IMG/VR virus record: IMGVR_UViG_3300020122_000133
Location: 1 to 48,494 of that record
DNA: 48,494 bases
Direction: 5' to 3' (one strand)
DNA from: a virus
Numbering within the stretch: position 1 is the first letter of the stretch; the number at the start of each line of letters is the position of its first letter. The position numbers and the translations under genes were made by a program. Shown here in pieces: positions 1 to 48,494 of this stretch. The notes under the pieces were generated by a model that saw only the letters and a program-made list of their open reading frames with translations, had not been told where the DNA came from and did no database searches.

Positions 1-127
1 ATGAGCGACTTCGCAGTATCGGTGAGTTGACGAATCATTCGCCACTCGTCGTAAGGACTCGGCCGATTCGAGTTCGTAGTGTCGAGAATGGAACACTCCA
101 CGCATTCGACAGCAAGGGTAGCGCACC
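1..127. repeat. Terminal direct repeat, left copy
   Basis: Bases 1-127 are identical to 48368-48494. The length of exactly 127 fits the largest k-mer of common short-read assemblers, so this is most simply the overlap of a circular assembly graph rather than a biological terminal repeat. It implies a circular or circularly permuted genome of 48,367 bp. A minus-strand gene stays in frame across the joint, which supports the closure. Confidence 0.95.
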
Positions 128-14914: not shown

Positions 14915-17319
14915 TGGCGAAGCGCGTCACGGTTCCGCTCGGGGTTGGGGGAAAGTTCTCTGGCGGGGACGCGGCGAAGATCCCGCCGGGCCAGACGCTC
15001 GACATGCTCAACCTCGTTCCTCGAGCGGCCGGGGCGTGGGTCAAGCGTGACCCATGGCTCTACGATTCGAAAGTCTCCTCTGTGGGGAGACTCCTCTCGC
15101 CCTTCGCGCTTTGGGATGATCTCGCGACCGCCTCGAAGCGGCTCATGACACTCCAGGGCGACTCGGGAGCACTCACAGAAACAATCTCCCTCAAGGCCGC
15201 GAGCGGAGAAGCGTGGACGGCCCTCAGCGCAGCGGCAGTCACTCTTCAGCAGTACCTCGGCACGATCGGCGACTACGCGAACCTACACGGCAATCTGTAC
15301 GCGAACGGCTCGGCTGGGCCGTCCACATCACAGGGAACGACGACGCACTTCAACTTCAACGGGACATCCCGTGCACCGACTGGTGCCGCCCTGTACGGAT
15401 CCAACGTCATTCCGACCGCGTTCCAATCCTTTTCGTTATGCTCGTTCATCGACCGCCTGTTTTTCGGGTGGATTCAGGCCTCCGTCCAGAACCTGCTCAC
15501 CCTCGTTCGTTGGCAGTCGGCATACAGTCCAGCCGATGCCGCATGGACGCTCACCAATCTCTCGTCGTCATCGCAGACGACCGGCGGGGCAACCACCTAT
15601 CGCATTTTGCCAACCAGCACAACCAGCGCGAACGCCACGATTTTGGCGACGAACAACTCAATCCCAGCCAACTCTGCTCCCCTCGGGGCGATCTATCGAT
15701 CAGACCTTTGCAACGAAGATCCGGCCTACTCTGCGCCGCTGACCTTGGATGTCCTCCTGGCGACGACATGGGGCACAGGTCTCGCCTATTCGGTCGGAGA
15801 CATCATCATTCCGTTGGCGGCGCGCAACGGGTTTTACTATCGGTGCTCAACTGCGGGCACCTCCGGAGGCGGTGAGCCAGCGTGGGGGACGACGCGCGGC
15901 GGGACAACGGCTGACGGAGGCACGCTCGTTTGGACGAACATGGGCTCGGAATCATTCGGCACGTTGGACGTGACGCTGCCAACGGCCTCAACTGATTTCG
16001 ACTTTCAGCCCTACTGGTGCTCTGCGACGATCCCGCCGCATACGAACAACATCGGTCTCGCGGTTCGGCTGAAGTGGGGCAATATCGCAACGCCAACCGG
16101 ATGGACTCCAACGAGCGTCAAGGTCGGGTACACGGACGGCCTCGGGGCGACAGATCCGAGGAAAGCCAATCGGGGCCAGCAGCTCACGCTCGACACGATC
16201 AAGTACCCCTTCTTTAATCGAGAGGCAACCGGCGCGGTCATCATGGACATCGCGGACATCGGCTGGAGCGAGACGAGCCAGCCGGGCGTCATCCGCGCTT
16301 CGAACACCTTCCAACTCGTCGAAGCGCCGGGGCACGTGACCTGCGTTCGTGTCTGCCGGGAACGCTTTTTTGCGATGAAGCGGAACGCGTTTGGGATGTT
16401 TCAGGGGACCGATGACCCTGACAATCCGCTGGCGATCGAGGATACCTTCGTGGGGGTCGGATGCCTCCATCACCGGGCCTTCGACAGCCTCGATGGGATG
16501 GCCTACTGGATCGGGGAGAACGAGGTCTACTCGTACATGCCCGGCAAGTGGACCGGGGGTGGGGCGCAGGCCCCTCAACCGCTCTGCGGGCCAGCGATGC
16601 GAGAAGAGGTCATGAACAAGGCCACGTCATCGTGGGTCGAGAATCAGGCGGCGAACTACAACACGCCCATCCTGGCCATCGACCGCCGCCGCCGCATTCT
16701 CTACGTCTATACGCAAAAGGCGAAGATTCACGGAATGTATCTCGACTCGGGCGAATGGTTCCGGCTCGACATCGCGACCGGCAGCGGTACGACGGCCGAG
16801 GTCTCCTCGCTCATCTATGATCCTCAGACGCTCAACATGTACGCCCTCATCGCCTATCCCGGCGCTTCCCAACAGGAAGTGCGGCGGCTCGATCCTTCGA
16901 GCTCCAATGACATTGACTCGGCCGGTGGAAGCTGGCCGGTGACGGCTCAGGTCACCTTCGCCCCGATCGAGGCTTCCGCGCCGCGCTTCGAAGCCGTGCT
17001 CGATTCGGCCAGGATGTTCCATCAGGCGACGGCTTCGCAGTCCGGGCAGACAGTGACAGCGAAGGTCTCATTTGATCAGGGGCAGACCTTTCCGAAGACC
17101 GCGACGCTCACCATGTCCCCGCTCTCGACTGGCGGGGAGTCCGTGCCGCTATTCCTTCCGGTCGGGCCTCAGCTCGGCGAGAGCCTGACAATCGCCGTCG
17201 CTCATGCCGGGAAGGCCGGAGCGGCGAACTTCTCGATTACGAGGGCCGAAGCAGCCATGCGTGTCATGCGCGGGGAATGGCCGAAGCAGCTCCCGACCGT
17301 TCAGGGGGCGAGCCTATGA
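14914..17319 (+). CDS. Tail nozzle / DNA-stabilisation protein (P22 gp10-like, putative)
   Basis: This 801-aa beta-rich protein follows the adaptor. It begins with a short N-arm (VPLGVGGKFSGGDAAKIPPG) typical of nozzle proteins, and has propeller-like strands such as MAYWIGENEVYSYMPGKW and TPILAIDRRRRILYVYT. It ends with MRVMRGEWP. In podoviruses this hexameric protein closes the portal channel and carries the spikes or needle. The ATG overlaps the previous stop (TGATG). Assignment is by order, size and fold-like pattern. Confidence 0.65.
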   Translation: MAKRVTVPLGVGGKFSGGDAAKIPPGQTLDMLNLVPRAAGAWVKRDPWLYDSKVSSVGRLLSPFALWDDLATASKRLMTLQGDSGALTETISLKAASGEAWTALSAAAVTLQQYLGTIGDYANLHGNLYANGSAGPSTSQGTTTHFNFNGTSRAPTGAALYGSNVIPTAFQSFSLCSFIDRLFFGWIQASVQNLLTLVRWQSAYSPADAAWTLTNLSSSSQTTGGATTYRILPTSTTSANATILATNNSIPANSAPLGAIYRSDLCNEDPAYSAPLTLDVLLATTWGTGLAYSVGDIIIPLAARNGFYYRCSTAGTSGGGEPAWGTTRGGTTADGGTLVWTNMGSESFGTLDVTLPTASTDFDFQPYWCSATIPPHTNNIGLAVRLKWGNIATPTGWTPTSVKVGYTDGLGATDPRKANRGQQLTLDTIKYPFFNREATGAVIMDIADIGWSETSQPGVIRASNTFQLVEAPGHVTCVRVCRERFFAMKRNAFGMFQGTDDPDNPLAIEDTFVGVGCLHHRAFDSLDGMAYWIGENEVYSYMPGKWTGGGAQAPQPLCGPAMREEVMNKATSSWVENQAANYNTPILAIDRRRRILYVYTQKAKIHGMYLDSGEWFRLDIATGSGTTAEVSSLIYDPQTLNMYALIAYPGASQQEVRRLDPSSSNDIDSAGGSWPVTAQVTFAPIEASAPRFEAVLDSARMFHQATASQSGQTVTAKVSFDQGQTFPKTATLTMSPLSTGGESVPLFLPVGPQLGESLTIAVAHAGKAGAANFSITRAEAAMRVMRGEWPKQLPTVQGASL

Positions 17320-40564: not shown

Positions 40565-40761
40565 GACTTGATTCCCGCGCCGCGCATGAACGCGGCCTTG
40601 TGCTGTTGCGCCTCGGGATGGTTGGTTGAGTAGACTTTCCATTCACCTTCGACGAAACCCCGGAAGGCATCAGTGTTGGTTCGTCTTCCTGCGGCGGTGG
40701 CCCGCGTGGCTGTGGCGAAGCCTTCGGAGCGGACGGTGGCCATCAGTTCGTGGTCGGTCAT
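40561..40761 (-). CDS. Unknown protein, 66 aa
   Basis: The product (TDHELMATVRSEGFATATRA ... FVEGEWKVYSTNHPEAQQHK) is small, soluble and alpha/beta in look. ATG overlaps the stop of the pentapeptide-repeat gene. No family recognised. Confidence 0.6.
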   Translation of the reverse strand: MTDHELMATVRSEGFATATRATAAGRRTNTDAFRGFVEGEWKVYSTNHPEAQQHKAAFMRGAGIKS

Positions 40762-41486
40762 TCCGCCGGCTCCGAAGATTCGAGAGCGATCGCATCCTCG
40801 ACGACAGATCGAGGGATCAGGCCCGCATCGAAGAGACTCACGAATTGTTGTGCGCGCGGACGGTGAAGGGCCGGAATATCATCAAGCGAATGGACGGAGA
40901 AGGCAACAGCCATAGGGCAGTTCGCCCAGTCGTTACATTCCCATGCGCCCGCGTCGAGGATTGCGCGGAGAGTCAGTCCGCCAGCGCGAAGCAGGGGCGG
41001 CACGACCTCAGACAGATAGGCCGCGAACGTTGGCACGCCAAGAGCGCAACCGGCGACAATCGCGCCCTCCAGGTACGCGCCCTCCAGGTACGCGCCCTTC
41101 AGGTACGCGCCCTTCAGGTACGCGCCATCCAGGTACGCGCCATCCAGGTACGCGCCCTCCAGGTACGCGCCCTCCAGGTACGCGCCCTCCAGGTACGCGC
41201 CCTTCAGGTACGCGCCCTCCAGGTACGCGCCCTTCAGGTACGCGCCCTTCAGGTACGCGCCCTTCAGGTACGCGCCATCCAGGTACGCGCCATCCAGGTA
41301 CGCGCCCTCCAGGTACGCGCCCTCCAGGTACGCGCCCTTCAGGTACGCGCCCTTCAGGTACGCGCCCTTCAGGTACGCGCCATCCAGGTACGCGCCCGCG
41401 GCTACGGCCGCGATGACGGTTTCGCGCTCTGTCGTGTGATCGGATTCATAGATGCATGCGTTGGTCCATCGATTCAGAATCTTCAC
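40758..41486 (-). CDS. Pentapeptide-repeat protein with 22 near-identical units, 242 aa
   Basis: After a 30-residue leader come 22 copies of AYL(D/K/E)G, ending AIVAG; then a ~95-residue C-terminal domain (AWECNDWANCPMAVAFSVHS ... FVSLFDAGLIP) also seen in other phage proteins. Pentapeptide repeats form a square beta-helix that can mimic DNA; some bind gyrase. Here the i-1 position is always Tyr and only the residue after Leu varies, giving charged and Tyr ladders. GTG 41486 overlaps the upstream stop. Confidence 0.85.
   Translation of the reverse strand: MKILNRWTNACIYESDHTTERETVIAAVAAGAYLDGAYLKGAYLKGAYLKGAYLEGAYLEGAYLDGAYLDGAYLKGAYLKGAYLKGAYLEGAYLKGAYLEGAYLEGAYLEGAYLDGAYLDGAYLKGAYLKGAYLEGAYLEGAIVAGCALGVPTFAAYLSEVVPPLLRAGGLTLRAILDAGAWECNDWANCPMAVAFSVHSLDDIPALHRPRAQQFVSLFDAGLIPRSVVEDAIALESSEPAE
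41066..41395. repeat. 15-bp tandem array encoding the pentapeptide repeat
   Basis: 22 consecutive 15-bp units of AGGTACGCGCC(C/A)T(C/T)C type with almost no synonymous change. The only variation is at the codon for D, K or E. The minus-strand order is DKKKEEDDKKKEKEEEDDKK then EE, which itself contains longer repeats and points to recent expansion by unequal exchange. Confidence 0.95.
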
Positions 41487-46274: not shown

Positions 46275-46303
46275 TTGACACACCCGACTTTTGGACCTAT
46301 ATT
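46275..46303 (+). promoter_or_regulatory. Strong promoter giving a leaderless transposase mRNA
   Basis: TTGACA (46275-46280), a 17-nt spacer and TATATT (46298-46303), with GGACC just before the -10 as at 31590. The ATG at 46310 falls at the expected first transcribed base, and no ribosome site is present. Confidence 0.8.
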
Positions 46304-46309
46304 GTCTGC

Positions 46310-47245
46310 ATGAGCATCGCCAACCGGGAATCCGACCATCCCCTGCCGAAGACTCCGAAGGGTCTGCACGACGCGATCATCTACTTCGCCGACAAGGAGC
46401 GCGTCCTTGCCTTTGCCGTCGCCTTTCGATGGCCGGAAGGCGTGACGTGCCCCTACTGCGGTTCGACGACGGTCAGCTTCCTCTCGACCCGGTCTATCTG
46501 GAAGTGCCTGAGCAAGGACTGCCGGAAGCAATTCTCGGTGAAGGTCGGGACGATCTTCGAGGACTCCCCCATTTCTCTGTCGAAGTGGTTTACGGCGATG
46601 TGGATGCTCACCAACTGCAAGAACGGTGTGTCGTCGTACGAGATCCACCGGGCGTTGTGCGTGACGCAGAAAACAGCGTGGTTCATGCTCCACCGCATCC
46701 GCGCGGCCATGAAGGCTCGCAGTTTCGACAAGAAGCTGGCCGGGATCGTGGAAGCCGATGAGTGCCACGTCGGCGGGCTCATGGAGAACATGCATAAGGA
46801 TCGCCGCGAGCGAATCAAGGGCGGACGGAAGGCGAACAGCGCAACCGGCAAGACGATCGTGCAAGCCGTGTTGGAGCGCAGTGGCGAGATCCGCACTCAG
46901 GTTCTCAACGATCTGACTCTCACCCCACGCCTCGACTTCTTGCAAGCGAACGTGGAGGACGACGCGAAGCTGATGACGGATGAGGGTTACAACAGCCCGC
47001 GCGTGGATTCGGCGTTCGAGCACGAATTCGTGAATCACAAGCTGGAGTACGTTCGCGGCAACGTGCACTGCAACGGCGTGGAGAACTTCTGGAGTCTCCT
47101 CCAGCGCGGCCTGAGCGGAACCTACATCGCCGCTTCGGCCGGCCACTTCGAGCCCGGATATCCGCGGAAGAGAATCGTCGTGTTATGGTCGATATCCTGT
47201 CGAAAGATCAGGGCCACGTACCACTCATCGAGTGCCGGTTCCTGA
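46310..47245 (+). mobile_element. IS1595-type (ISXO2-like) transposase, C-terminally replaced, 311 aa
   Basis: An N-terminal zinc ribbon (C47, C50, C66, C71), the typical CRKQFSVKVGTIFEDSPISL and TQKTAWFMLHRIR helices, and a DDE core with D150 (VEADECHVGG), D224 (MTDEGYN) and E258 (NGVENFWSLLQRG) are intact. After about residue 280 (SAGHFEPGYP) the expected C-terminus is lost: the last ~31 residues are antisense to a minus-strand phage gene. No flanking inverted repeats were found. It may be an inactive remnant or a domesticated enzyme. Confidence 0.85.
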
Positions 47246-47271
47246 TCGGAGAAGAGAATCCACTCGGCCAT
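47122..47271 (-). CDS. Small protein truncated by the transposase junction, 49 aa
   Basis: GGAGG lies 5 nt before ATG 47271. The product MAEWILFSDQEPALDEWYVA then LIFRQDIDHNTTILFRGYPG looks normal until its last eight or nine residues, which read antisense through transposase DNA to a chance TAG at 47122. It was probably longer before the insertion. Function unknown. Confidence 0.6.
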   Translation of the reverse strand: MAEWILFSDQEPALDEWYVALIFRQDIDHNTTILFRGYPGSKWPAEAAM

Positions 47272-47618
47272 CACTCCTCCGGCGGTAGGCTCACGGAAAG
47301 CTCGGTGATGCGGTATGCCCGCACATCGGCCAGCCATGCCAGCGACGGATCGATCACCGTGCTATCGTCCCCAGCTTGGAAGAAGCTCACCCCAGCGCCG
47401 TACGAGACGGGGAAGACCTCTCCTGCGGCATCTCGCTCGATAATCTCCCGTGCCAGGATGCGCTCGTTGTCATTCAGCGGAGCACCGATCGAGACGAGCT
47501 TCCCGAACTCGGGACGGCGAGCGCTCGTTTTCGGGATGATGATCCCGCCCTGGTTCTGCTCAACGGGCTTCTGGAACAGGAGAACCACTCTCCCCGGCAT
47601 TGCTTTGAGCATCGGCAT
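47271..47618 (-). CDS. GroES-like co-chaperonin (Cpn10-type), 115 aa
   Basis: The opening MPGRVVLLFQKPVEQNQGGI then IIPKT fits the GroES first strands and mobile-loop start; EFGKLVSIG is the G.V...G strand, and PVSYGAGVSFF the closing barrel strand. Phage Cpn10 proteins replace or adjust host GroES for capsid folding. The mobile loop is hard to delimit. A strong GGAGGG precedes ATG 47618. Confidence 0.65.
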   Translation of the reverse strand: MPMLKAMPGRVVLLFQKPVEQNQGGIIIPKTSARRPEFGKLVSIGAPLNDNERILAREIIERDAAGEVFPVSYGAGVSFFQAGDDSTVIDPSLAWLADVRAYRITELSVSLPPEE

Positions 47619-47835
47619 CTTGTTCCCTCCTGCGGATCTCTTCCGCTGCTTTCTTTGCGTGAATCCGGCCCCACGGCCGGTATCGCTCAGTTGAACCGAA
47701 ACGATAGACGACGAGGTAGCACGGCCAGCAGTACGGACCGATGCCGCGGCGGTAGTGCCGCCCCCGGCGACGGCACTGATAGCCGCCTGACCATCCGATA
47801 CAGCGCGGCCGATGGGATTTACTCGATCGCAGCAC
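47560..47835 (-). CDS. Small basic zinc-type protein, 91 aa
   Basis: CIGWSGGYQCRRRG and GIGPYCWPCYLV give two Cys pairs for a zinc site, followed by basic helices. It overlaps the GroES-like gene by 59 nt in another frame and the upstream gene by 17 nt at its GTG. The overlap lowers confidence in the exact ends. Confidence 0.55.
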   Translation of the reverse strand: MLRSSKSHRPRCIGWSGGYQCRRRGRHYRRGIGPYCWPCYLVVYRFGSTERYRPWGRIHAKKAAEEIRRREQDADAQSNAGESGSPVPEAR

Positions 47836-48055
47836 GGTGCGCCTTCATCTTCGCTCGCTTGGCAGCCTTCATCGCCGCCTTCCCGCGGCGACGCGTTCCC
47901 TGATCGTTGATCGTCACATACGTCGTCAGGCCGTCGGCACTCTTGAAAGGCGCGCTGAGTCGCAACGCGGCCGGCTTGCGAGTCCGGCGCTTCGGACGAC
48001 CGTCATCCTCGGGAATTTCGGCTTTGAATCGTTCCAGCTCCTCGTCATGTTCCAC
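47819..48055 (-). CDS. Small basic-tailed protein, 78 aa
   Basis: GTG 48055 has GGAGG 7 nt upstream. An acidic N-terminus (EHDEELERFKAEIPEDDGRP) passes to KRRTRKPAALRL, a short beta part (GLTTYVTINDQG) and a Lys-rich tail. The start codon lies inside the parS-like palindrome. Confidence 0.65.
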   Translation of the reverse strand: MEHDEELERFKAEIPEDDGRPKRRTRKPAALRLSAPFKSADGLTTYVTINDQGTRRRGKAAMKAAKRAKMKAHRAAIE

Positions 48056-48062
48056 GTGGAAC
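48049..48062. promoter_or_regulatory. parS: parS-like palindrome
   Basis: GTTCCACGTGGAAC is a perfect 14-bp palindrome; with flanks it reads TGTTCCACGTGGAACC, which is the canonical bacterial chromosomal ParB-binding site as I know it from Pseudomonas and relatives. It overlaps the start codon and ribosome-site spacer of the gene at 48055. No ParA or ParB gene is in the genome, so a host ParB would be the binder. Confidence 0.65.
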
Positions 48063-48066
48063 CCTC

Positions 48067-48494
48067 CTACTTCACGATCTGATGAACGACGTAGTGGCCG
48101 TGCTGCTCGGCGCAGTGGCAGTATCCGGCACCCTTACAAAGTATCTGCTGAAAAATCACTTCCTGCCCTACACAAACTGCATGCGAGGCGCGGTTGCCGA
48201 TGTGCAGCCGGGCGCGAAGAACGTTGATCTGCGCTGCCGCCTCATGGATCAGAAAGGGCGCACCCGGCAGAATCGGGGGAAGGCCAGCCAATGCCTCGCG
48301 AAGCTGCTTAAGATACTCAGCTTCGTTGGTGAACGACGCGGCATCTCGCAACCTCTCGACCTCGGCAATGAGCGACTTCGCAGTATCGGTGAGTTGACGA
48401 ATCATTCGCCACTCGTCGTAAGGACTCGGCCGATTCGAGTTCGTAGTGTCGAGAATGGAACACTCCACGCATTCGACAGCAAGGGTAGCGCACC
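48067..48494 (-). CDS. 3' part of the gene crossing the contig ends
   Basis: This is the remainder of the 147-aa protein that starts at ATG 143. The true codons continue from base 1 to base 48367 of the circle. It holds the coiled coil (RQLTDTAKSLIAEVERLRDA), a middle segment GLPPILPGAPFLIHEAAAQI and a C-terminal tail with C and H residues (AVCVGQEV, GYCHCAEQHGH). Stop TGA at 48067, 11 bases before the next GTG. Function unknown. Confidence 0.7.
   Translation of the reverse strand, partial: CATLAVECVECSILDTTNSNRPSPYDEWRMIRQLTDTAKSLIAEVERLRDAASFTNEAEYLKQLREALAGLPPILPGAPFLIHEAAAQINVLRARLHIGNRASHAVCVGQEVIFQQILCKGAGYCHCAEQHGHYVVHQIVK
48368..48494. repeat. Terminal direct repeat, right copy
   Basis: Identical to bases 1-127. 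It should be removed once to obtain the circular 48,367-bp sequence. Confidence 0.95.

Follow-up and report, generated by a model that had tools for sequence, protein, structure and literature searches.

Can a phage that encodes no partition proteins of its own carry a parS site of the bacterial type, and would such a site be read by the ParB protein of its host? This question is raised by a palindrome at the start of a small gene in the window, by which we mean the whole stretch of 48,494 nt that was analyzed. The exact 14-mer GTTCCACGTGGAAC is found at positions 48049-48062 as the sole copy in the window. The preliminary description of this DNA had reported a perfect parS core there and had placed it over a start codon, and both statements hold: the match is exact and present once, and it includes the GTG at 48055 which starts the ORF 47819-48055. 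The second-closest match to GTTCCACGTGGAAC in the window has three mismatches, with about 2.3 matches at up to three mismatches expected there by chance, and no second parS-like site or cluster of sites was found in the window by the mismatch scan. The features of the locus are the following:

48048..48063, palindromic core 48049-48062: parS-like site TGTTCCACGTGGAACC, the same as P. aeruginosa PAO1 parS1/parS4 (PMC4368675, Table 1; ChIP-seq in PMC5098823).
48063..48068, minus strand: Shine-Dalgarno sequence AGGAGG, directly 5' of the palindromic core and 7 nt before the GTG start.
47819..48055, minus strand: ORF of 78 aa from gene calling; it starts with the GTG contained in the CACGTG core.
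48067..48494, minus strand: upstream gene of the same operon, continuing over the circular junction; it begins with MAIDLRCATLAVE... and ends 11 bp upstream of the 78-aa gene.
47560..47835, minus strand: next ORF downstream in the operon, 91 aa with several Cys/His residues and no Pfam match.
47271..47618, minus strand: last gene of the operon, a phage GroES-like (Cpn10) gene (PF00166, E 9e-6).

On the minus strand the site reads AGGAGG-GTTCCAC-GTG-GAAC. In the order ...GTAGGAGG-GTTCCAC-GTG-GAA-CAT-GAC... the palindrome reaches from the end of the Shine-Dalgarno sequence to codon 3 of the 78-aa gene, and its central CACGTG provides the GTG start. The run of minus-strand genes begins at a divergent region next to the terminase genes, which lies about 0.7 kb away from the parS-like site, and ends with the GroES-like gene; no GroEL was seen. 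Neither Pfam nor PHROGs gave a match for the 78-aa protein, and no relatives of it were found in the viral contigs searched.

The position of the GTG at the center of the palindrome allows for an explanation at the level of RNA, namely that a hairpin in the mRNA hides the start codon and controls translation, as GUUCC could in principle pair with GGAAC around ACGU. We regard this as highly improbable and rejected it on the fold: the 76-nt initiation region, when folded, is no stabler than its shuffles (z -0.22), and in the structure predicted for it the palindrome is not used as a hairpin. Moreover, a stem of 5 bp needs no full parS consensus with CACGTG.

The identity of the site can be compared to experimentally characterized sequences. 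With its flanks the window site is identical in 16 of 16 bases to parS1 and parS4 of P. aeruginosa PAO1, both of which are TGTTCCACGTGGAACC (PMC4368675). These two are among four sites bound by ParB in vivo according to ChIP-seq, for which the species motif TGTTCCACGTGGAACM was proposed (PMC5098823). The core had been called canonical beforehand, and this designation is confirmed by the match of the flanked 16-mer to validated parS sites. Compared to the chromosomal consensus TGTTNCACGTGNAACA, TGTTCCACGTGGAACC agrees with the perfect palindrome in 15 of 16 positions; the CACGTG core is intact, and the outer flank is C where the consensus has A. The parS of M. xanthus is TGTTCCACGTGGAACG (PMC3899335). 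Thus the window site resembles the chromosomal parS1/parS4 of P. aeruginosa in its CACGTG core and its GTTCC/GGAAC arms, but it differs from them in that it resides in a phage without parAB, in one copy and over a translation start. Bacterial chromosomes usually have several parS sites, compared to the one in the window.

A statement about missing partition genes depends on the completeness of the record. Its first 127 bases are the same as its last 127 (direct repeat of 1..127 and 48368-48494), and one ORF runs cleanly over the circular junction. The record therefore represents a complete circular phage genome of 48,367 bp, so that the absence of ParA and ParB becomes meaningful. The G+C content is 61%. 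A terminase is encoded (PHROG match), and the adaptor and portal models of SU10 are matched as well. Six-frame searches of the complete genome for ParB_N (PF02195), HTH_ParB (PF17762) and the ParA-type AAA_31 domain (PF13614) yielded no match, and no ParA-like ORF was found by Pfam among the 55 ORFs, the only ATPase of note being Sak4-like (AAA_24). This is in agreement with the initial claim that the phage lacks both proteins. A self-contained ParABS locus of the P1/N15/RedRock type is ruled out, as neither parA nor parB is present in the complete genome. Plasmid-phages with ParABS (P1, N15 and the RedRock-type mycobacteriophages) share with the window phage a centromere-like site on a phage genome, but they encode their own ParA/ParB together with cognate sites, whereas the window phage encodes none.

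Further elements of the genome were recorded in passing. No tRNA genes were found in it. A strong sigma-70-like promoter (46275-46303) directly precedes an IS1595-family transposase (46310-47245, plus strand), which has a zinc ribbon and an ISXO2-like DDE domain and around which terminal inverted repeats were not clearly found. The transposase gave no indication of the host: its best matches have less than 60% identity and are scattered over many phyla. A pentapeptide-repeat protein (40758-41486, minus strand; Pfam E 1e-30) is possibly a DNA mimic.

How many copies of the 14-mer would be expected by accident? For the window the expectation is 2.0e-4 under an i.i.d. model, 1.9e-4 under a first-order and 3.1e-4 under a second-order Markov model, which falls within the range of about 10^-4 to 10^-3 estimated at the outset. 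Perfect 14-bp palindromes as such are common in the window (six against an expected 4.1); what is unusual is therefore which palindrome this is, not that it is symmetrical.

To put this into a broader context we surveyed IMG/VR, the contigs of which may contain host DNA or be fragments, a concern that the named phages described below answer for the most part but not entirely. The 14-mer occurs in at least 120 contigs. The parS 16-mer likewise occurs in at least 120, compared to 2 for a composition-matched control palindrome and 0 for the reversed sequence, which is also a palindrome. Among the matches listed, 60 of 121 viral 14-mer sites have both T..A consensus flanks and 43 have one, where about 6% and 37%, respectively, would be expected by chance at 25% per flank. 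Also among the matches listed, 46 out of 107 (43%) non-redundant full 16-mer sites lie inside called genes, whereas positions drawn at random from these contigs do so in 88% of cases (p about 2e-29). Sites without either consensus flank behave more like chance, with 13 out of 17 located wholly inside genes. A two-component mixture model was fitted to the flanks and the location of the viral 14-mer sites, and it assigns about 80% of the viral 14-mers to a non-chance component. For the class of the window site (a single consensus flank and a position not entirely within a gene) the posterior of being non-chance is 0.95 (bootstrap 0.89-0.99), and it rises to 0.96-0.97 when the contigs have a G+C content of 55% or more. 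These values depend on a custom gene caller and on background frequencies that were assumed for the flanks. The earlier suggestion that the match is unlikely to be accidental is thereby supported, viral 14-mers of this class being mostly non-chance. ParB_N was detected in 1 of 50 long IMG/VR records with parS, i.e. 49 out of 50 are without ParB.

Related genomes were compared as well. The sole relative found is a distant one, a 40.7 kb IMG/VR contig obtained by the capsid-region search. It shares structural genes and the groES-terminase neighbourhood with the window at 24-67% protein identity (67% for the capsid-region protein), and a 50%-identical orthologue of the GroES-like gene adjoins its terminase. 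This single distant relative possesses neither a parS at the equivalent locus nor the 78-aa gene. In the phage collection no relatives were found by DNA, portal, terminase or capsid-region searches; a terminase scan of IMG/VR found none, and a capsid-region search of 84,980 species genomes gave no match. Retention of a site is observed between the Coopervirus phages Zemanar and Bane1 and within the KPP25 group, where the sequences around it are nearly identical.

It is conceivable that an accident placed a functionless 14-mer at a gene start. While one must keep in mind that the sequence is only 14 bp long and that some accidental copies must occur in a collection of the size of IMG/VR, that the flankless sites behave like chance, and that the only relative compared is without the site, we consider an accident improbable. 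Only 2-3e-4 copies are expected per window, one consensus flank together with a start-overlapping position defines a class with about 5% chance matches, and the site is identical to the proven parS1/parS4.

Named phages offer a second line of evidence. In the phage collection, 18-mers of the Pseudomonas type were matched in 41 records, those of the Bacillus type in 198 and the window's own CATGTTCCACGTGGAACC in 48, counts that include duplicates and close kin; three control palindromes were found in 0 records. Out of 27 parS-bearing records that were checked, 25 are without ParB and two have ParB_N. The sites are situated between genes or beside terminators in the Pseudomonas phages KPP25, R18, CRPAP1904 and Lana, in Stenotrophomonas phage BUCTxx99, Ruegeria phage DSS3P8, Butyrivibrio phage Arian and Glutamicibacter phage Voltaire, and in Microviridae. 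Within a gene they are found in B. subtilis phage B103, Pseudoalteromonas J2-1 and Klebsiella RaK2. Some of the exact sites inside phage genes may be due to chance or coding, because a few lie deep in genes, including those of Klebsiella RaK2-like jumbo phages.

Several observations accompany this survey. An intrinsic-terminator-like hairpin often directly adjoins phage parS sites between transcription units (at one site, 1502-1515 of the examined segment). The phi29-like Bacillus phage B103 has a perfect B. subtilis parS in gene 15 (15610-15627 of the record). The circular Inoviridae genome PQ006097.1 (bajarodino virus 3; 6.2 kb) contains six perfect parS sites of the B. subtilis type, and related records contain 5-6 each. 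In the M. smegmatis phages Zemanar and Bane1 the window's own 18-mer is located at 701-718 of the examined segments.

The Coopervirus mycobacteriophages Zemanar and Bane1 are of interest with respect to regulation. As in the window, GGTTCCACGTGGAACATG is located where a gene starts, and an alternative GTG start inside the palindrome is possible there as well; if parS is preceded by a Shine-Dalgarno sequence, the GTG of its core can at the same time act as start codon. The proteins are unrelated, with no homology found between the 78-aa protein and the Coopervirus gene starting at the same string. This recurrence at gene starts, together with the location of the window site exactly between the Shine-Dalgarno sequence and codon 3, would fit a palindrome without a role in segregation that mainly serves the transcriptional or translational control of the 78-aa/groES operon, its reader being host ParB as a repressor or else a phage DNA-binding protein. 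Candidates of the latter kind exist, as the phage encodes helix-turn-helix and ribbon-helix-helix proteins. We nevertheless judge a pure operator to be unlikely. Unlike most phage operators, the sequence has no copy at any other promoter in the window, and most phage parS sites are situated between genes or beside terminators and not at starts. Were the reader a phage protein, the identity to parS would be a coincidence.

Taken together, we consider it likely that the palindrome is a genuine host-type parS in a phage without its own partition proteins, and that it is functional and recruits host ParB. Observed are the identity with proven parS sites, the absence of ParA and ParB, the non-chance enrichment and the bias towards intergenic positions in ParB-less phages. 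We infer that the host of the phage has a ParABS system, that host ParB binds the site and that the phage gains a benefit from it. ParB is a CTP-dependent clamp. At infection, host ParB could load on 48048-48063 and then slide into the adjoining phage DNA. The phage genome would thereby join the DNA that is handled by the ParA/SMC machinery of the host, and might be held at the nucleoid or the pole and, if lysis comes late, be shared out to the daughter cells. A tendency to silence the operon would be a further consequence of ParB binding, since the site overlies the Shine-Dalgarno-GTG start of the 78-aa gene and is situated about 0.7 kb away from the divergent region next to the terminase genes. 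Repression, tethering and genome marking, the effects suggested in the preliminary description, are candidate effects. The overlap with a translation start further implies that part of the site may be under coding or initiation constraint.

The use of a foreign ParB has precedents. DNA of phage phi29 is trapped in spores through the host protein Spo0J (ParB), according to Meijer et al. 2005 as cited in PMC9437464. Like the window phage, phi29 has no partition proteins of its own, and host ParB places its genome; the phi29-like phage B103 has a perfect B. subtilis-type parS. The phi29 work reportedly proposed parS sites on the phage genome. The two cases differ in that phi29 hosts form spores, and in that the arms of the window site are of the Pseudomonas/Myxococcus type and not of the Bacillus type. 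A second precedent is SGI1, whose parS mimics bind the ParB of the IncC helper plasmid and stabilize SGI1 (PMC10954446). SGI1 resembles the window phage in having parS without ParAB, and it uses the ParB of another replicon for its stability; in contrast to the phage it is an integrative element, and it relies on a plasmid ParABS rather than a chromosomal one. As in this hitchhiking of phi29 and SGI1, parS is present and own ParAB is absent in the window phage.

Hitchhiking on host ParB is already known, and the more interesting result is the breadth of the pattern in phages. In the mainly open-access literature searched, a host-type parS in phages that lack ParB is not reported as a general pattern. 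It may be a widespread, repeatedly evolved trait of phages, including lytic tailed and small ssDNA phages, to carry one or a few host-type parS sites and no ParAB, a trait by which host ParB clamps, positions and partitions (or silences) phage genomes far beyond sporulation in phi29. The window would then be one case of it, in which the site and a translation start are fused; we hold this generalization to be evenly balanced.

If the site binds host ParB, a phage without partition genes uses the chromosome-segregation machinery of the bacterium. The survey, with its strong enrichment of exact chromosome-type parS sites in phages that mostly lack ParB, suggests that phages borrow this machinery from their hosts and that such use is more than a curiosity of phi29. 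Cultivable hosts exist for such parS-enriched phages (Bacillus, Mycobacterium smegmatis, Gordonia, Microbacterium, Pseudomonas and Ruegeria), which also include tiny Microviridae and Inoviridae. Whether lytic phages exploit ParB or are silenced by it is thus directly testable in laboratory strains.
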